This document shows positions 1,734 through 10,133 of a stretch of 10,920 bases of DNA, piece after piece. Under the pieces are notes generated by a model. That model did no database searches and was not told the origin of the DNA. It saw only the letters and a program-made list of their open reading frames with translations. Source of the stretch: an uncultured Lentisphaeria bacterium (GTDB lineage Bacteria; Verrucomicrobiota; Lentisphaeria; Victivallales; Victivallaceae); the NCBI GenBank assembly GCA_903821255.1, contig CAIJKT010000100.1:1-10920 (forward strand). The letters are read 5' to 3'. Made by a program: the position numbers and the translations under genes. Every line of letters starts with the position of its first letter. Position 1 is the stretch's first letter.

Positions 1734-3023
1734 TCAGTCCGAAGATTTTTTTGTTTCCGCAGTCTGAAACCTTTTCAAATAGCGAATCCGCTGCAACAGC
1801 GGCGGATGCGAGTAATGAAATTTGGCGTAAAGCTTCTGCGGGTGAATATTTGACAAATTTTCGGCGGACAGCTTAACCAGCGCTGATGCCAGAGCTTCGC
1901 CGCTGCCGATAATCCTGACGACAAATTTATCCGCCTGTTTTTCAAAATGTCTTGAAATTGCGTTGAAAAACGGAGGCATCCCCCAGAGCACGATTGTCGC
2001 GACAAAACTCAGCAGAATGAATTTTGCAAAAAACGTGTCATGCGTCAGTCCGAATACCCGCGTCAGCCAATTGCTTTTTTCCAGCAGCAGGAAAGCAATA
2101 AAAGCTCCTGGCGCGGTAAGCGTTTCGAAAATAATCAGATTTTTTAAGACATGACGCTTTTTGCAGTGCCCCGCCTCGTGGGCCAGCACCGCCAGAATCT
2201 CTTCCTTGTTCAGACGTTCCAGCAGCGTATCAAACAGCACGATGCGCTTGACCCGTCCCAGCCCGGTAAAATAGGCATTTGAATGTTTAGTTCTTTTCGA
2301 TGCATCCATGCGATAAACGCCGCGGACTGTAATCCCGCCTTTCTCCAGAACTGATTCTATTTCCTTCTCAAGCGCCTTGTCCTCGATCGGAGTGAATTTA
2401 TTGAACAGCGGTTCAAGCACATACGGAGAAATATAAATTACAAAAATGGTGAAAGCAACGAAAAATCCCCAGACCGGAAGCCACCATATCTCCGGCAGCC
2501 GCTCGATCAGCCAGAATGCACCGACAATCATTATTGAAAGCAGAATTGAAGAGACAACAAAGCCTTTCAAAATGTCAAGCAGCCATAACTTGAAAGTCAT
2601 GGTATTAAAGCCAAAACGTTTCTCCAGGTTAAATACGCGATAAAGGTTTAACGGAAGGTTCAAAAAGGTCTTCGCATAAGTCAGCACCATCATGAAAACC
2701 AATCCGCCCAGTATGAAATTACTGGTATCTTTATACGAATTAAAACAATCAAACAAGTAATTATTGTAGTAATTTAAAATCCCGAAGATGAAAATCAAAG
2801 TGATCAACTGGTTGTAAACTGTGGAATATCCCCAGTACTTTGTTTTTGCAATAGTGTAATTCTTCGATCTTTCCATCAATTCCGGCGTAATAACGTCTTT
2901 AAATTCAGGCGGGATTTCCGCGCCGTGTTTTTCCAGATAGCGGCGGTTCATATACTCGAGAATAAAATCAGCCAGTTGAGTCAGAAAGTAAAATATAATT
3001 ATAATCGCAAGTTCGTATTTCAT
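1734..3023 (-). CDS. M48-family CAAX-type membrane metalloprotease (Ste24-like)
   Basis: This 429-residue zinc protease resembles Ste24/CAAX prenyl protease 1. It has an N-terminal multi-TM half (Peptidase_M48_N-like) and a C-terminal catalytic half. The zinc motif HEAGH is at residues 282-286, and E361 in FEKQAD is the likely third ligand with D365 close by. The preceding NAYFTGLG and KRIVLFDTLL segments match the conserved Ste24 block that forms the substrate strand. Bacterial members cleave membrane or membrane-associated proteins in quality control, but the substrate here is unknown. The start is taken at 3023 (MKYELAIII), preceded by GGGGA about 8 bases upstream. The frame stays open to 3089, but that extension is polar and lacks a ribosome site. 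The gene is convergent with the YhcH-family gene, with only 4 bp between the stops, so any terminators must lie inside coding sequence. Confidence 0.92.
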   Translation of the reverse strand: MKYELAIIIIFYFLTQLADFILEYMNRRYLEKHGAEIPPEFKDVITPELMERSKNYTIAKTKYWGYSTVYNQLITLIFIFGILNYYNNYLFDCFNSYKDTSNFILGGLVFMMVLTYAKTFLNLPLNLYRVFNLEKRFGFNTMTFKLWLLDILKGFVVSSILLSIMIVGAFWLIERLPEIWWLPVWGFFVAFTIFVIYISPYVLEPLFNKFTPIEDKALEKEIESVLEKGGITVRGVYRMDASKRTKHSNAYFTGLGRVKRIVLFDTLLERLNKEEILAVLAHEAGHCKKRHVLKNLIIFETLTAPGAFIAFLLLEKSNWLTRVFGLTHDTFFAKFILLSFVATIVLWGMPPFFNAISRHFEKQADKFVVRIIGSGEALASALVKLSAENLSNIHPQKLYAKFHYSHPPLLQRIRYLKRFQTAETKKSSD

Positions 3024-3101
3024 CAAAAATCCCCAATTATTAATCAAAACATTCCAAACGTCACATTTATGAATACAGAAATATCTCATAGATAAACTAT
3101 T

Positions 3102-3179: not shown

Positions 3180-4322
3180 TCATTGAGAAGAAGATTCCAG
3201 TTGAATCGGCTTAGCCGTATCAGTAATAAAGGTCTTGATAAAGCCCCTGATGCGTTCTTCCGCCTCCTGGATATTGCCGTACTCCACCGGCGAGAACACA
3301 TGATAAATCGTCCATTGCGAATCCCAGGCGTAGGTGCTCCGGAAAAACGCAAAATCGTCAACTGAACGTTTGACCGAACTGTACCAGACATAGAAAATAA
3401 AACGTCGGCCGCTCTTTTCCGCCTCAATGAAGTTGGCCACCGCGGCACCATTGTCGATATTAATTTCAACGCGCCGGCTGCTCAGAATTTTCCAGTTGGC
3501 GGAAGTCAGACAGAGCCGGAACGGATGAACCTTATGAATATCGCCTGCCACTTGCACCACCAGAGAGGAAACCGGAGCGCCGGCATCAGAATAATGAGTA
3601 AACCGCTGCGCCGCCTGGTCTTCATAAAAACCTTTTTCAATCGCATTCAGTTCAACGGCTTCTCCAAGCCATCTGCCCGCAGGTTCAATTGAAATATTGA
3701 GATTAAGCGGAGTACCTTGTGACGGTTTTTCAAAAAAGATAAAAAGGCTGCCCAGCCAGACAAGAACCGCCGCAAAATAAAAGACCCCCTGCCGGTTAAG
3801 CAGCAATTTTGTAAAATATTCCAGATATAATTCAGCGGCTATCAGCAGAAACGCGGCAATAAACTTGACCGCGATTCCAAAAGACGCATCAAATCCCAGG
3901 CGCTGGAGCATGTCACCGCACCAGAAGGAAGTGGCCGGGAGAGCAAGCATCAGCATCAGAAACAGCGGCAGCGTTCTGACAAAAATCCGCCATCCCCACA
4001 ACAGCCAGAGCATGGAGACACAGAACAGCAGCGCAAATATCATGTAAATCATGTTGATCCGCAAATATATTCCCAAGCCGAGACCCGCGACAGACAAAAA
4101 CAGCGGAATAATCCCTCCGAAATCATAGTCCCCCGCCTGTGTCCTGAAATCTTTGAAAAAAAACGCTGCCGTCAGAATTGCCGCGACAATGAAAATCGGG
4201 TCGAAGCGGTCAAGCGGGGATATCCGCCAGGCCTGAATAAACCAATTTATTTTAAGCGCCACCGGCTCCCAGGCGCAGATAAATATAAACATTTTAAAAT
4301 AATCATTTCTGAATATTTTCAT
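3180..4322 (-). CDS. Exosortase-associated membrane protein with C-terminal EpsI-like (DUF3485) domain
   Basis: This 380-residue protein has two parts. Residues 1-197 hold about six to eight hydrophobic segments. The block around 111-160 (WRIFVRTLPLFLMLMLALPA, then MLQRLGF and an AVKFI helix) resembles the central membrane part of exosortases but has no ACSG catalytic motif. Residues about 200-380 form a soluble domain. H266-P267-x3-C271-L and W277 fit the EpsI-type 'HxPxxC...GW' signature, and FIFYVWY (308-314) fits the aromatic strand that follows in EpsI proteins. EpsI proteins accompany exosortases, sometimes fused to them, and are thought to help sorting or export in the periplasm. The gene overlaps the catalytic exosortase by 20 bases, so the two are probably coupled. 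The membrane half may be a degenerate exosortase scaffold (inference). The ATG at 4322 is used. Confidence 0.75.
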   Translation of the reverse strand: MKIFRNDYFKMFIFICAWEPVALKINWFIQAWRISPLDRFDPIFIVAAILTAAFFFKDFRTQAGDYDFGGIIPLFLSVAGLGLGIYLRINMIYMIFALLFCVSMLWLLWGWRIFVRTLPLFLMLMLALPATSFWCGDMLQRLGFDASFGIAVKFIAAFLLIAAELYLEYFTKLLLNRQGVFYFAAVLVWLGSLFIFFEKPSQGTPLNLNISIEPAGRWLGEAVELNAIEKGFYEDQAAQRFTHYSDAGAPVSSLVVQVAGDIHKVHPFRLCLTSANWKILSSRRVEINIDNGAAVANFIEAEKSGRRFIFYVWYSSVKRSVDDFAFFRSTYAWDSQWTIYHVFSPVEYGNIQEAEERIRGFIKTFITDTAKPIQLESSSQ

Positions 4323-5139
4323 TCCCGTCCTCCTCTTTAAACAGCAGCCGGCAGAACCACATCAGCAGCGCCGCAATAATCACCATGACGAAGCCCATTA
4401 CGGTATGGAGCTTATAACTGAATGCGGCATTCCCGATATTCATATACAGTAGAATTACCGCGGACAGGCGCAGAGTGTTCATAAAAATGACAATTGGAAA
4501 GATCATGATAAAATGGGCAGCCCGCCGCCAAATGGCCCGGTGAGCGCTGACTACGATCAGCCAGCCCAGCAGCAACATTGCCTCCAACTGAAAAATTCCG
4601 CTGCATGCGGTCGTTATCGAAATTTTTTCTCCGCCTAAAACAATCACCGCCGCTTCATTGCTGACATTCATCCCGAATATTTTCAGAAAGTTTGCGGTGA
4701 AACCGGCGCAAATCAAGCACAGCGGATAACTCAGCAGGTAATGGCAATAAGTTAAAAACGGCAGAATGATAATAAATACTGTAAAAGGCAGCAGAGTTTT
4801 CAACATAAATGCAGTTCCCGCAATCCAGGCTGCCAGACTGAGCATCAGGGTCAGCAGCGATAAATTGAAAAATACCGCAGTTTTATTGCCAGTAAGGATT
4901 CCACCCCAGATCAGCGCAACAGCCGCGACCATCAGTATCCATCCGGTCATGTATGACGGGTTAAAATTCCAGGACTTGCGGAAACCTCTGAAAGCGTTAA
5001 ACAACATGCCGGCAGCCAGCAGCCACAATACCATAAACTCTGAATCGGACACGGCAATTCCGGAAGCAAACGGATAAAATGCCGCCGGCAGACAGATTAT
5101 ACCGGTGAATATGGCTTTAGTTGTGTCATTTCGAGACAT
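4303..5139 (-). CDS. Exosortase/archaeosortase family protein (catalytic)
   Basis: This 278-residue integral membrane cysteine transpeptidase/protease candidate has about eight TM segments. The expected active-site order is visible: C179 in TTACSGIFQLEA, R224 in FMNTLRLSAV, and H245 in KLHTVMGF. The upstream block with LPFLTYCHYLL, an amphipathic helix and KIFGMNVS followed by VIVLGGEKISI is the usual run-up to the cysteine. Such enzymes recognise C-terminal PEP-CTERM-type tails (short Pro-rich motif, TM helix, basic end) on secreted proteins and process them at the inner membrane. The start at 5139 has AGG 6-8 bases ahead, within the stop region of the TPR gene 6 bases upstream. The next gene overlaps its 3' end. 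No exopolysaccharide genes are adjacent, so a dedicated role with the local exported protein is likely (inference). Confidence 0.88.
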   Translation of the reverse strand: MSRNDTTKAIFTGIICLPAAFYPFASGIAVSDSEFMVLWLLAAGMLFNAFRGFRKSWNFNPSYMTGWILMVAAVALIWGGILTGNKTAVFFNLSLLTLMLSLAAWIAGTAFMLKTLLPFTVFIIILPFLTYCHYLLSYPLCLICAGFTANFLKIFGMNVSNEAAVIVLGGEKISITTACSGIFQLEAMLLLGWLIVVSAHRAIWRRAAHFIMIFPIVIFMNTLRLSAVILLYMNIGNAAFSYKLHTVMGFVMVIIAALLMWFCRLLFKEEDGNENIQK

Positions 5140-5145
5140 TATTAC

Positions 5146-8100
5146 CTATTCTATTGTCATCTTTGGCGGATTCGCCGATAAGTTCCGCCTTGCCTGGACC
5201 AGCAAGTCTTTCGCTTCGGCATTACCCGGTTCAAGCATCAGAGCCTGCACAAAATATTTTTCGGCTTTCGCAAAATCTTTATTCGACATGGCACGGCGGC
5301 CGGCATAAATCCAGACCGAAGGCCATTCGGGTGCCTGGTTAAGCGCCTTCTCCGCAAATTCATCCGCATGTTTAAAATCCCTGGACGCGGCATACGCTTC
5401 TGAGGCCTTGATCAGTTCGGCCGCTTTATTATGCAGATTTTCAGCCAGAACCTGTTTTATTTGTTGCTGCAGGCCCTGCGCCTCGGCATTACCCGGTTCG
5501 AGTATCAACGCCTGGACAATATACTTTCCGGATTTTACATAATCTTTGCCTGACATGGCGCGGCGGCCGGCATAAATCCAGACCGAAGCCCACTCAGGAG
5601 TCAGATTAAGCGCTTTCTCCGTATATTCGTCCGCATGTTTAAAATCTTTAGACGCGGCATAAGACTCAGAGGTCTTCATCAGTTCAGCCGCTCTATTCCG
5701 CAATTCTTTTGTGGATCCGCGCCCTATTTGCTCAAGCAGCCCCCTTGCCTCGGCATTCCCCGGCTCAAGCTCAAGCGCCAGGGTAAGATCTTTTTCGGCT
5801 TTCGCAAAGTCTTTGTTAAACATGGCACGGCGGCCGGCACAGACCCAGGCCGGCGCAAATTTTGGAGCGGCACGCAGCGCTTTTTCCGCTAATTCGTCCG
5901 CTTGTTTAAAATCCTTTGACGCGGCACAAACTTCCGAACGTTTTATCAGCGTGATCACATTGTCCGGATCTTTAGCGATCCTCTGCCGGACTTGTTCGAG
6001 CAGGGCTTTGGCTTCGGCATTATCCGGCTCAAGCATCAATGCGTGGACGAAATGTTCATCAGCTTTCAATAAATCATTTCTAGACATGGCACGGCGGCCG
6101 GCGCAAATCCAGACCGGCGGCCATTCCGGAGATTGATATAGTGCTTTCTCAGAGAACTCATCCGCCCGCCGTGAATCATTCAATGCGGCATAAGCCTCGG
6201 AAAGATTCACCAGTACGGCATTCCAATACGGCATTTTATGCAGCAAATCTTCGTATATTTTTACGGCCTTTTCCACGCTGCCGTATTTCTGCTCCCAGTA
6301 AGCCATTTTAAAGGCTACAACCGGATTGACGCTTTTTGTACTGTAGAAGTAATCCAGCAGCCGGCCGGCCTCTGCGATTTTGCCGGATTTAATCAACATC
6401 TCCGAATACAGGAAACAGTAGCGGAGAGTATCCGGGTCCATTTCGTATGCTTTTTTATAATTTTCCTCGGCGGATGCGTAATTCCCTTGGGAATTGAACA
6501 TATCGCCCATCAGTGCCCAGCCCAGCGCACGGGTATTTCTATTGTCGCTTTTAATTAAATTTCTGGCAATATTCTCAGCGCCTGCATAATCTTTAAATTC
6601 TATGCAGAGCATAAAAGCGAATTCAGCGATCTCGCTATCCTCCGTTGCCAGTTTGCTGGCTTTGGCAATATATTCTTTCGCCATGACCAGATTGCCGGCC
6701 TGACGATACGCCTGCGCGACAAGATAAAGACCGACCGGCGAGTCAGGCCGCATTTTGATCAGTTTAAGGAAAGACTCGACAGCCTTCTCGGGTTTATTTA
6801 ATTGCAAAAGTGACCGCCCCTGGATTTCCAGCGCTTCCAGCGAATCGGGATTGAATTCCAGCATTGTGCCGGCCTGACGCAATGCTTCCAGGTATTCACC
6901 GTGACGATATTTAGACAGCATCAGCAGCCGCGCATTTATCTTATTGACCGGATCTATCTGCTCAATCTCATTCATCAATTTTTCAGCATAAGAATAGTCT
7001 TCATCAAGCATCGCCTGGGACGCGGTTTCGCCCATGGCGTCGGCAATAATTTTCCGCGCTTTCTCTGAGTCTTTCACTTTCAGCAATTGAGCGGCGGCGT
7101 CGGAAACTGACGGATAATCTTTCAGCGGCAACGAAGTTTTAAAGAGCATCCACTGATACGCCGGACGTCTCCAGTAAGCAGTGCTTCGCTTCAACAATTT
7201 GGACGTCTCGCTGAAATCGTTGTGGATAAAAGTAATCATTGCCCTGATGTAATTCCTTGACGCGACGGCAGTTTTATTTTCAACCAGAATTTCTTTAATC
7301 AGCCGGTTCAGCACCGGAACGTCTGATTTCGCGGCGTAAATTTCCGCCAGAGGAATTATTGCTTCAAGCGAACCGGGGATACGGTTCAGGATTTCCCAGT
7401 ACAACACGGCAGTCTTATCGTTCTTCCCGGTATCCCGGTAGAATCCGGCAAGAACAAACTTCGGGCCGACAGAATTGCGCTCGACTTTCAACGCTTGCAG
7501 ATAATATTCTTCCGCTTTTTCCATATGGCCTGAAGCGCGCGCGCAATTCCCCAGTCCGATAAGTACGGCGCTTTTTATTCCGGCGCTTTCAGAATTTATG
7601 CTGTTGAAAACGGCGGCGGCGGCTTTATGCTGGCCATCGCCGGCAAACATATTCGCCTTCAGCAGCAGCGCGGAAATATTATCCGGTTCGGCAGTGAGCA
7701 TTTCCGCGATAACCGGTTCAGCCAGTTTTCGTTGTCCATTATACATATATGCTTTGCACAAACATATCTTTTCCGGAGTGGTGATCTTCTGGCTGTCAAG
7801 ATAAGGCTTCAGGAGTTCAACCACTTCGTCATAACGCCGGCAGGCCAGCAGATTCTCGGCAATTTTCAAAACCACATCACGGTCCAGCGGATTGAGTTTC
7901 GCCACATTCCGCCAATAGTACACCGCAGTGCCGGGCTGGCCTTTCTGCTCATATATCGCCGCCAGCTTGCGGTGGGCGCTCTCATTCGACACCTCGCGGG
8001 AGATTATGCCCTCCAGAATCGCGGCGGCCCGGTTATAGTCTTCGGCGTTTATCGCGAGATTGGCCTCGTCCATATAATCGGCCATGTTCTTGTAAGATAA

Positions 8101-8178
8101 CGCGAAATAACCAATCAAGGCAAGACAGGCAAGCGCAATAATAACACTTCCTATTTGAATGAAGGCTTTAAAACTCAT
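5146..8178 (-). CDS. Large membrane-anchored TPR protein of the exosortase locus
   Basis: This 1010-residue protein has one N-terminal hydrophobic segment (about residues 6-27, IQIGSVIIALACLALIGYFA) followed by TPR-type helical repeats almost to the C-terminus. Typical TPR spacing is seen in units such as YYLQALKVERNSVGPKFVLA and NYKKAYEMDPDTLRYCFLYS. The last third (about 660-1005) is a tandem array of four closely similar ~88-residue units, each two TPRs plus a linker. The topology implies a periplasmic scaffold. In role it recalls PrsT-type TPR proteins of PEP-CTERM loci, but it lacks a convincing lipobox (IALAC does not fit). ATG 8178 is chosen: the frame is open to a GTG at 8277, but that would precede the TM with a charged 33-residue stretch, overlap the upstream gene and lack a ribosome site. 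The Shine-Dalgarno of ATG 8178 is also weak. It ends 6 bases before the exosortase. Confidence 0.85.
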   Translation of the reverse strand: MSFKAFIQIGSVIIALACLALIGYFALSYKNMADYMDEANLAINAEDYNRAAAILEGIISREVSNESAHRKLAAIYEQKGQPGTAVYYWRNVAKLNPLDRDVVLKIAENLLACRRYDEVVELLKPYLDSQKITTPEKICLCKAYMYNGQRKLAEPVIAEMLTAEPDNISALLLKANMFAGDGQHKAAAAVFNSINSESAGIKSAVLIGLGNCARASGHMEKAEEYYLQALKVERNSVGPKFVLAGFYRDTGKNDKTAVLYWEILNRIPGSLEAIIPLAEIYAAKSDVPVLNRLIKEILVENKTAVASRNYIRAMITFIHNDFSETSKLLKRSTAYWRRPAYQWMLFKTSLPLKDYPSVSDAAAQLLKVKDSEKARKIIADAMGETASQAMLDEDYSYAEKLMNEIEQIDPVNKINARLLMLSKYRHGEYLEALRQAGTMLEFNPDSLEALEIQGRSLLQLNKPEKAVESFLKLIKMRPDSPVGLYLVAQAYRQAGNLVMAKEYIAKASKLATEDSEIAEFAFMLCIEFKDYAGAENIARNLIKSDNRNTRALGWALMGDMFNSQGNYASAEENYKKAYEMDPDTLRYCFLYSEMLIKSGKIAEAGRLLDYFYSTKSVNPVVAFKMAYWEQKYGSVEKAVKIYEDLLHKMPYWNAVLVNLSEAYAALNDSRRADEFSEKALYQSPEWPPVWICAGRRAMSRNDLLKADEHFVHALMLEPDNAEAKALLEQVRQRIAKDPDNVITLIKRSEVCAASKDFKQADELAEKALRAAPKFAPAWVCAGRRAMFNKDFAKAEKDLTLALELEPGNAEARGLLEQIGRGSTKELRNRAAELMKTSESYAASKDFKHADEYTEKALNLTPEWASVWIYAGRRAMSGKDYVKSGKYIVQALILEPGNAEAQGLQQQIKQVLAENLHNKAAELIKASEAYAASRDFKHADEFAEKALNQAPEWPSVWIYAGRRAMSNKDFAKAEKYFVQALMLEPGNAEAKDLLVQARRNLSANPPKMTIE
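5165..6200 (-). repeat. Four tandem ~265-bp repeats inside the TPR gene
   Basis: The element cggcggccggc (plus strand) recurs at 5294, 5561, 5828 and 6092, giving periods of 267, 267 and 264 bases, all multiples of three. Each unit encodes a variant of 'EAYAAS+DFKHADE..EKAL...PEW..VWI.AGRRAM..KD..KAEK...AL.LEPGNAEA', about 88-89 residues. The copy nearest the C-terminus lacks the full linker. High similarity at DNA and protein level, unlike the older diverged TPRs upstream, indicates recent duplication or gene conversion. Copy number is likely to vary between strains. Confidence 0.88.
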
Positions 8179-8251
8179 TTCTTTGATCTTGCCTGTCTGT
8201 AAAATGTCATAATTTAAAAATTTATCCCAGTAAGCCTCTTCAAGCCGTATT

Positions 8252-8953
8252 TTAAAAAATATTCCGCCAGCCAACACTGCCGATCGTAATTATGCCCGCA
8301 ACAAGCGTATATAGAATCGAAGGTGCGGGTTGTCCCTGCGGCGGCGAACTGCTGCCGGCAGGCGTAACGCTGATTGATACGAGGCAGTCATTGAAATCCA
8401 GATCTGCTCCATAAATCTTCTGAGTGCTGGGCAGAGTGCCTATCCATTTATCCTCAAATCCGATTATCATCTGCTGAGAAGTTGAATCCGCCGTGACCAC
8501 CGCATGCTGGACCCGGGTAATGTTGGCCTCGTCGACAGTCCACGTCGTAAAACCAGGATTATTGGATTGCTCGATCCAAAATCCGATTTTCTCGCCGGCC
8601 GGCGGGGTGATCGTAAAAGTAGAGCCGGGAGTCATGGTCGAAGCGGCAGTACTGAAAACAGAAATTTTATTGCCGGCATCAGGCAGCCCGTTGGCCAGGA
8701 TTTGCACATAACCGAAGTTGGTAACCTGATTGGTGCCGCCGATAAACGTCAGCGTGGTCCTGGTTCCGTCTGCAACCACAAAATTAGCCATGTCGTTGCT
8801 GCCTTTGTAGTTAAAAGCCGGGGTTCTGCCATCTTTGAAATACCGGTCAGCGCTTTGAGCGGTATTGGCAGGAATATCCACAATTTCAGCAAGCACCATG
8901 CCGGCGGCAAATATGAGCAATATCGCCAAAATACTCTTCTTGAGTGATTTCAT
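8252..8953 (-). CDS. Exported DUF4114-like protein with PEP-CTERM-type sorting tail
   Basis: This 233-residue protein is the likely substrate of the exosortase. Residues 1-22 are a classical signal peptide (KSLKK, then a hydrophobic core, cleavage after VLA-22). The mature part is rich in Thr, Gly, Asn and beta strand. G165-F-E-D168 and D184-L-D186-F-N188-D189 match the acidic 'GFED...DxDFND' region of DUF4114 domains, which are common in secreted and PEP-CTERM proteins and may bind Ca2+. The C-terminus has the three-part layout of a sorting signal: a Ser/Pro-rich linker and P209-A-P-S212, a hydrophobic helix about 213-229, and a short end R230-N-I-F. The motif is atypical, with PAP instead of PEP and a single basic residue. 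A GGAGGT ribosome site and a near-consensus promoter precede the gene. The TPR gene follows after 73 bases. Confidence 0.7.
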   Translation of the reverse strand: MKSLKKSILAILLIFAAGMVLAEIVDIPANTAQSADRYFKDGRTPAFNYKGSNDMANFVVADGTRTTLTFIGGTNQVTNFGYVQILANGLPDAGNKISVFSTAASTMTPGSTFTITPPAGEKIGFWIEQSNNPGFTTWTVDEANITRVQHAVVTADSTSQQMIIGFEDKWIGTLPSTQKIYGADLDFNDCLVSISVTPAGSSSPPQGQPAPSILYTLVAGIITIGSVGWRNIF

Positions 8954-9074: not shown

Positions 9075-10133
9075 TTAAAGTTCGATCATTTTCCCGGTAC
9101 GGAAGGATTCATCTGCGGCAAGCACGATTTTCAGGCTGTTTATCGCATCATCCCAATGCGCGGACAAATCAATATCCCGCTTAATCGCATCCAGGAAAAA
9201 CTGCTGTTCACGCTCGCACAGTTCCTGATGCACAGGCTCATCAGTCATTTCGACGTATCTGTCCTTTGCGATAAATTTACCGGCGGCGTCAATTTTCCCG
9301 GAATGTATCAGCAACCGGGTGGTTTTCGTATGAGAATCAATATTGTCAGATGCGGTATCTTTACTGCCGATAATACTTACCGCACCATCCGGTCCGATAA
9401 CGTCTTTAACAAAATAAGCGGTCTCACTGATCATCGGCCCCCATCCCGCTTCATACCAGCCGACCGAGCCGTCGGCAAAAGCAACCTGAAGCTGGCCGTA
9501 GTTATACATATCCGGGGCGATTTCATTGCTCAGCCGGGCGCCGATCGCGCTTACGCGCAACGGCCGGGATCTGGTCATCTGGCACATCACGTCCACATAA
9601 TGCACTCCGCAGTCAACTATCGGCGAAAGCGATTGGAGCAGATTTTTATGTTTGTTCCATTGATTGCCGCTGCTCTGTTGATTAAGATTCATCCGCATCA
9701 CCAGCGGCTTGCCCAGGGCCTGCGCCAGTTCGATGAATTTCATCCAGGAAGGATGATGCCGCAAAATATAGCCGATTACCAGTTTACGATCTGTCCTGCG
9801 AGCCGCGTCAACCACCGCCTCGGCTTCGGCAACGTTCCGTCCAATCGGTTTTTCCAGAAAAACGTGTGCTCCCGCGTTCATCGCCTTAATCGCATATTCA
9901 GCATGCGTATCCGGATAAGTATTCACCGAAACCGCATCCGGCCTGGTCGCTCTCAGCGCTTCCTCATAATCGTTAAAACGTCCGGCAATGCCAAGCTCGT
10001 CCGCCAGCGCGGTGCAACTTGCTCCGCGGCTTACCACCCCGACGATCTCAAACTCCTTGAGTTTCTTGTACGCTCTGGCATGTGACGCCCCCATCTGTCC
10101 ACAACCCGCCACCAGTACTTTGATCTTTTCCAT
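9075..10133 (-). CDS. Gfo/Idh/MocA family NAD(P)-dependent oxidoreductase
   Basis: This 352-residue cytoplasmic dehydrogenase has the usual family length. The N-terminal Rossmann fold has VAGCGQMG with G10-x-G12-x2-G15 for the dinucleotide phosphate. E94-K95-P96 is the family's EKP motif, with the lysine taking part in catalysis. The C-terminal domain has D174-C-G-V-H178-x2-D181, the DxGxHxxD substrate-site signature. Members oxidise or reduce sugars, inositols and related polyols, but the substrate cannot be inferred here because no sugar pathway genes are adjacent. The ATG at 10133 immediately precedes the KIKVLVAGCG strand. The upstream ribosome site is weak (GAGTGG, about 9 bases away). 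It stands apart from the next minus-strand gene by 121 bases containing that gene's own promoter, and is divergent from the lipoprotein gene at 10426. Confidence 0.92.
   Translation of the reverse strand: MEKIKVLVAGCGQMGASHARAYKKLKEFEIVGVVSRGASCTALADELGIAGRFNDYEEALRATRPDAVSVNTYPDTHAEYAIKAMNAGAHVFLEKPIGRNVAEAEAVVDAARRTDRKLVIGYILRHHPSWMKFIELAQALGKPLVMRMNLNQQSSGNQWNKHKNLLQSLSPIVDCGVHYVDVMCQMTRSRPLRVSAIGARLSNEIAPDMYNYGQLQVAFADGSVGWYEAGWGPMISETAYFVKDVIGPDGAVSIIGSKDTASDNIDSHTKTTRLLIHSGKIDAAGKFIAKDRYVEMTDEPVHQELCEREQQFFLDAIKRDIDLSAHWDDAINSLKIVLAADESFRTGKMIEL

Follow-up and report, generated by a model that had tools for sequence, protein, structure and literature searches.

Most exosortase systems have many targets and large gene clusters and are therefore hard to test, and we know of no exosortase reaction whose acceptor has been identified. 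In the PEP-CTERM/EpsH-EpsI-PrsT system, as presented in the passages of PMC1569441 that concern it, EpsI (the function of which is called unknown there) adjoins the exosortase EpsH, and the system also includes a PrsT-type tetratricopeptide repeat (TPR) protein and targets with a tripartite tail, at a median of eight targets per genome. The XrtD/VPLPA-CTERM system of Rhodobacterales unites exosortase and EpsI in one fused protein of ~533 aa, has a P-L-P core in its tails and shows, on one plasmid, the gene order target-TPR-XrtD. Dedicated sorting, with one enzyme and one target encoded nearby, is also already known, the worked case in the relevant part of PMC3237569 being a rhombosortase. Here we describe a module of four genes in a stretch of 10,920 nucleotides (hereafter, the window) of contig CAIJKT010000100.1 from an uncultured Lentisphaeria bacterium, which encodes a candidate target, a TPR protein, an exosortase and an EpsI-type membrane protein. 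From its sequence, this module is probably a small exosortase sorting system by which the target would be cut and anchored at the cell surface, with probably a single target in the lineage of the window and one to few across the class, often within a polysaccharide cluster.

The module resembles the PEP-CTERM system in its exosortase, adjacent EpsI, PrsT-type TPR protein and tripartite tail. In contrast with that system, no Pro-Glu-Pro tail (PEP-CTERM, TIGR02595) exceeded the cut-off in any of the three closest genomes, there are no polysaccharide genes beside the module of the window, and its lineage appears to have one target instead of the median of eight. As in the dedicated systems, it seems to pair one enzyme with one nearby target; it differs from them in that the enzyme is an exosortase accompanied by two accessory genes and in its single-target appearance, which is confined to the lineage of the window. 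The three closest genomes are Lentisphaeria metagenome-assembled genomes (MAGs; G001, G002 and G003), to which the nearest contigs in our genome collection belong.

The four genes are all encoded on the minus strand, in the order of transcription target, TPR protein, exosortase and EpsI-type protein. Their coordinates bear out the tight same-strand order described in the initial annotation, including a 6-base gap between the TPR and exosortase genes (5140-5145) and a 20-base overlap between the exosortase and EpsI-type genes (4303-4322). The TPR gene more likely starts at ATG 8178 than at GTG 8277, since its three closest orthologues begin with MSFKAF, and this start leaves 73 bases between the target and TPR genes. 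The arrangement is not a local oddity. A scan of the genome collection found 15 loci in Lentisphaerota, Verrucomicrobiota and one Marinamargulisbacteria MAG, which, with 40 further regions and the window, made up 56 loci that we tested with models built from the module proteins. The order TPR-exosortase-EpsI is kept in 42 of them, and EpsI is found downstream in 53. Variants include a TPR-EpsI-exosortase order (L015), a contig end behind the exosortase (L133) and a fused exosortase-EpsI protein (L163, in genome G042), which we count as support for a sorting system.

The exosortase is 99% identical to an NCBI-listed protein from a Victivallaceae MAG and belongs to the exosortase/archaeosortase superfamily (PF09721, 94.1 bits, cut-off 25.7; TIGR04178, 48.5 bits, cut-off 23), with the Cys, Arg and His residues in place. 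These residues, C179, R224 and H245, which had been proposed from the start as those of a catalytic exosortase, are identical in all 56 aligned module exosortases. None of the cut-offs of the named Xrt subfamilies in NCBIfam 20.0 was reached by the window exosortase, the best matches being 8TM_EpsH (78.6 bits, cut-off 105.55) and XrtD (77.1 bits, cut-off 400), nor, at stricter E limits, by the 12 module relatives scanned (6 + 6). A tree of 73 rows had a 94/98 branch that separated the 56 module exosortases from the remaining 17 rows, namely 3 XrtA, 4 XrtD, 1 XrtV, 1 Desulfovibrio and 2 planctomycete sequences and 6 second exosortases of Verrucomicrobia. The rows of this tree were collected using a module model, and its inner placements are unsure (long branches). 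Together, the scores and the tree support a distinct, unnamed exosortase branch, in line with the separate subfamily suggested in the initial annotation.

The link between this exosortase and a particular kind of tail was traced in 197 genomes of the Lentisphaeria, the class of the close relative G003. Strong relatives of the exosortase (E ≤1e-30) occurred in 71 of them; 8 more had weak matches only, and no tail. A sample of 387 genomes from the wider phylum yielded 50 with a match at E ≤1e-30, 45 of which were already among the class genomes. With a tail model built from 14 tails, some of them from the class genomes searched, and a threshold of E ≤0.01, we found a G-x-P-x-P tail (mostly GQPLPG) in 62 of the 197 genomes, 58 of which also had the exosortase (Fisher p 5e-32, a value overstated by kinship and by the training of the tail model). 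Four genomes had a tail without exosortase, and two of them (G112 and G184) have contigs that break off within the TPR gene next to the tail. A same-strand tail was located 2.3-3.1 kb upstream of the exosortase in 26 of the 71 genomes, a distance that fits one TPR gene in between. The G-x-P-x-P core is invariant across tailed proteins with different bodies. The common form in the relatives is GQPLPG followed by a helix and a Lys/Arg cluster, and the orthologues of the window target have GQPAPS, a short hydrophobic stretch and one Arg. In the literature, GQPLPG returned an unrelated enzyme only. One GQPLPG-tailed protein (L101:1489-2064) passes the LPXTG anchor model with 16.4 bits (cut-off 15.9), so that proteins with such tails could be annotated by mistake as sortase targets of the Gram-positive type.

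Each of the three closest genomes contains one tail at E ≤4e-13, located just upstream of the TPR gene, and the next best match has an E of at least 0.75. G001 and G002 have one exosortase each and G003 one plus a remnant with three in-frame stops (G003:C264:24305-24856, L177). The one-target reading of the lineage is based on these sister MAGs, the completeness of which is unstated. Among the 71 exosortase genomes of the class, no tail was detected in 13, one in 34, two in 17, three in 5, six in 1 and seven in 1. The contigs G067:C51 and G065:C91, from the two genomes with the most tails in the class (7 and 6), carry several tailed proteins of ~300-380 aa in a row. The dedicated one-substrate system put forward in the initial annotation is thus supported for G001-G003, as far as these MAGs go, where we found neither a further strong tail nor an intact second exosortase, and is not supported as a rule, given the several tails of many class genomes and the presence of similar tails near a different exosortase in two Verrucomicrobia. 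The most fitting name for the module is a few-target system that frequently sits within a polysaccharide cluster; in the lineage of the window it seems detached and is probably single-target.

A number of observations weigh against this reading. In 14 of the 56 loci, some of which are truncated by a contig end, we did not find the order TPR-exosortase-EpsI. A strict one-target rule is contradicted by the 24 of 58 genomes with both exosortase and tail in which there are 2 to 7 tails. Among the 13 exosortase genomes without a tail match, at least two (G054 and G061) have an adjacent tailed gene missed by the model, which leaves the other 11 as exceptions. In the Verrucomicrobia G011 (C268) and G013 (C60), GAPLPG-type tails are encoded ~6-9 kb from a second, different exosortase, for which XrtA/XrtW are the nearest NCBIfam models, with scores below their cut-offs. 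The tail model had itself been trained on two of the G011 tails. The module of G013 has no adjacent tailed gene, and on the module contig of G011 there are 473 bases ahead of the TPR gene, so that an adjacent target could be cut off. In the window target itself, the single Arg at the end of the tail makes a weak basic cluster, the predicted structural model has a mean predicted local distance difference test (pLDDT) score of 53, and a DUF4114 match was absent in 8 of the 10 other tailed proteins scanned.

The genomic surroundings of the module bear on another possible, if rather doubtful, explanation, namely that it belongs to an ordinary exopolysaccharide-linked exosortase system with its polymer genes on other contigs, the target being attached to or exported with the polymer, in which case the module would not be functionally self-contained. 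No glycosyltransferase or polymer-export family exceeded its cut-off in the 10 window open reading frames (ORFs) scanned, which agrees with the lack of such genes next to the module remarked on initially. Across the class, at least 24 of 75 modules (22 genomes; confirmed in L154) are followed on the same strand, at a distance of 1.2-3.4 kb, by a PF02397 sugar transferase. Polysaccharide genes just outside the module are what the initial annotation had itself named as speaking against a self-contained system, and this part of it is not supported as a general rule. Modules of this kind thus often sit within a polysaccharide cluster, from which the module of the window, with no PF02397 over its cut-off in the ORFs scanned, appears detached. 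Further points in favour of the exopolysaccharide link are the presence of polysaccharide genes at 9 of 11 named reference loci and of PF02397 on other contigs in G001-G003. Among the reference loci, that of Isosphaera has a tyrosine kinase, EpsI and TPR, and that of Aliiroseovarius has target-TPR-XrtD without polysaccharide genes. In G001 and G002, the PF02397 matches listed lie on contigs other than those of the module, but the module contigs measure only 7.1 and 5.4 kb. On the other side, the family is common in the class anyway (162 of 197 genomes), none of this kind is over its cut-off in the window, and the single PF02397 match of G003 lies off its 49.5-kb module contig, on which the five ORFs scanned with Pfam gave MlaA, TPR, GH99-like, GHL10-like (weak) and MlaE.

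Much less likely is a divergent member of the XrtD/VPLPA-CTERM system whose fused exosortase-EpsI protein came to be encoded by two separate genes. Among the NCBIfam models, XrtD ranks second for the window exosortase, the PLPx tail core resembles VPLPA, both systems combine an exosortase with EpsI function and one XrtD locus has the same target-TPR-XrtD order. However, the match of 77.1 bits is far from the cut-off of 400, the four XrtD rows of the tree cluster with each other (100/99) and apart from the 56 module rows, and the VPLPA tail model gave no match over its cut-off in 10 tailed relatives, the sole match having 11.7 bits (cut-off 25.35). Exosortase and EpsI are moreover separate genes here, and the EpsI-type partner has an additional half-exosortase region. 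Score, gene structure and tail model thus all place the module outside XrtD/VPLPA-CTERM. Marginally less probable still is that the tail does no more than anchor the C-terminus of the target in the membrane, the substrates of the neighbouring exosortase being other proteins. The short helix and single Arg of the window tail would suit such an anchor, as would the 11 exosortase genomes in which no tail was found; the co-occurrence of tail and exosortase (58 of 62), their conserved adjacency (26 of 71) and the constancy of the G-x-P-x-P core on different bodies argue for a sorting signal instead.

In the small sorting system that we favour, gene order, conserved residues and co-occurrence are seen in the sequences, and export, capture, cutting and transfer are proposed to follow each other. 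The target would be exported by Sec and held in the inner membrane by its tail helix, after which the TPR protein and the EpsI-type partner would bring it to the exosortase. C179, aided by R224 and H245, would then cut near the P-x-P motif, and the exosortase would transfer the target to an acceptor, either lipid or polysaccharide, leaving it anchored at the cell surface.

The EpsI-type protein exceeds the cut-off of PF11984 (28.7 bits, cut-off 26.1) and stays below that of TIGR02914 (19.5 bits, cut-off 42.8), so the EpsI-domain membrane protein of the initial annotation holds by the first of these models. Its N-terminus aligned with exosortases with hhalign probabilities of 91.9 and 89.7 when relatives were sampled widely, against 19 with close relatives alone. 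The exosortase model matched 24 of 55 EpsI-type proteins as well as 11 unrelated ORFs, the latter with at most 6.9 bits; an earlier version matched 23 EpsI-type proteins (best 25.4 bits) versus 6 others (best 7.0). Fold searches of the Protein Data Bank (PDB) with the membrane half of the protein gave nothing convincing. From these sequence comparisons, the protein looks like a remnant of the N-terminal half of an exosortase joined to an EpsI domain. The EpsI domain has structural matches to SciW/DcrB/PsbP, and its residues His266, Cys271 and Arg328 are invariant in 47 of 47 rows. H266 and C271 are also common to all 7 references (stand-alone EpsI proteins and XrtD C-termini). In XrtA C-termini, a weak control because XrtA may have no EpsI domain, the Cys is conserved in 0 of 3, a His is aligned in one of the three sequences and a Lys in all three. 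The portions of the literature examined record no function for these three residues. A bolder and, in our opinion, unlikely idea is that of a two-part enzyme, in which exosortase and dead half-exosortase would form a heterodimer and EpsI would be a thiol enzyme using His266, Cys271 and Arg328 to take the cut protein from C179 and pass it to the final acceptor.

The TPR protein reaches 217.8 bits with the PrsT model TIGR02917, below the cut-off of 312.2, and cannot be assigned to PrsT by this score. A tandem array in the C-terminal part of its gene (5212-5926) consists of a 267-base unit in 2.7 copies with 75% matches. The giant TPR protein of the initial annotation corresponds to a PrsT-type protein plus this array; its relatives outside the clade of the window are shorter, mostly 670-890 aa.

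The candidate target has an N-terminal signal peptide (read by eye) and orthologues that are 81-84% identical over their full length. Its DUF4114 score of 26.9 bits is just below the cut-off of 27, and the first 17 structural matches of the predicted model of its body are LecB-type lectins. When the PDB was searched by sequence with the profile of the target, no LecB chain came up, and the best E of 0.13 was chance-like. The acidic motif of the target may correspond to the calcium ligands of LecB. DUF4114 has been linked to LecB/BclA-type calcium lectins in the text of PMC9109919 that deals with them. Judging by its modelled fold, the target is most likely a calcium-dependent lectin-like protein, which resembles LecB/BclA-type lectins in the predicted fold of its body and differs from them in its signal peptide and sorting tail and in the lack of a LecB chain by sequence profile.

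The features of the module are listed below. The module is flanked by genes for a Gfo/Idh/MocA oxidoreductase (9075-10133) and an M48 (CAAX-type) protease (1734-3089), which occupy the same places in locus L003 with 90% and 94% identity. Rfam (gathering threshold) and tRNA scans of the window returned no match. Promoter (12 found, 9.3 expected) and terminator-like (15 found, 8.0 expected) scans were not used as evidence.

Features of the exosortase module in the window (positions counted from its first nucleotide)
Feature	Position	Strand	Basis
Candidate target, 233 aa, secreted, DUF4114-like	8252..8953	-	ORF; DUF4114 26.9/27 bits; orthologues
Sorting-like tail of target: GQPAPS, hydrophobic stretch, single Arg (residues 207-233)	8255..8335	-	kept in orthologues
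DUF4114 region of target with E-D...D-x-D-x-N-D motif (residues 135-196)	8366..8551	-	Pfam; invariant alignment columns
TPR protein, PrsT-like	5146..8178	-	TIGR02917 score; start inferred from orthologues
Exosortase	4303..5139	-	PF09721 94.1 bits; tree
Exosortase C179 codon (putatively catalytic)	4603..4605	-	identical in 56/56 module exosortases
Exosortase R224 codon	4468..4470	-	identical in 56/56 module exosortases
Exosortase H245 codon	4405..4407	-	identical in 56/56 module exosortases
EpsI-type membrane protein, 380 aa	3180..4322	-	PF11984 28.7 bits, cut-off 26.1
Half-exosortase-like membrane region of EpsI-type protein (residues 12-148)	3879..4289	-	hhalign 91.9 and 89.7
EpsI domain (residues 207-371) with His266, Cys271, Arg328 (3339-3527)	3210..3704	-	structural matches; invariant residues

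Dedicated sorting as such is already known; what seems new in this module, judged against NCBIfam 20.0 and the literature searched, a comparison outside which the 2012 exosortase survey falls, is the exosortase branch with its tail, the EpsI partner with its half-exosortase region and the set of His, Cys and Arg in the EpsI domain. The module points to an exosortase branch and a GxPxP tail for which the scans made showed no specific NCBIfam 20.0 model, and to a conserved His and Cys in EpsI, the protein whose function is called unknown in the passages of PMC1569441 mentioned above. With a single target, enzyme and EpsI partner, it is a minimal case in which the exosortase reaction could be reconstituted. 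If the EpsI relay were true, the window would show it in minimal form with a single lectin cargo and, since the His and Cys are common to all 7 EpsI and XrtD references, the relay would explain what EpsI does in many exosortase systems.

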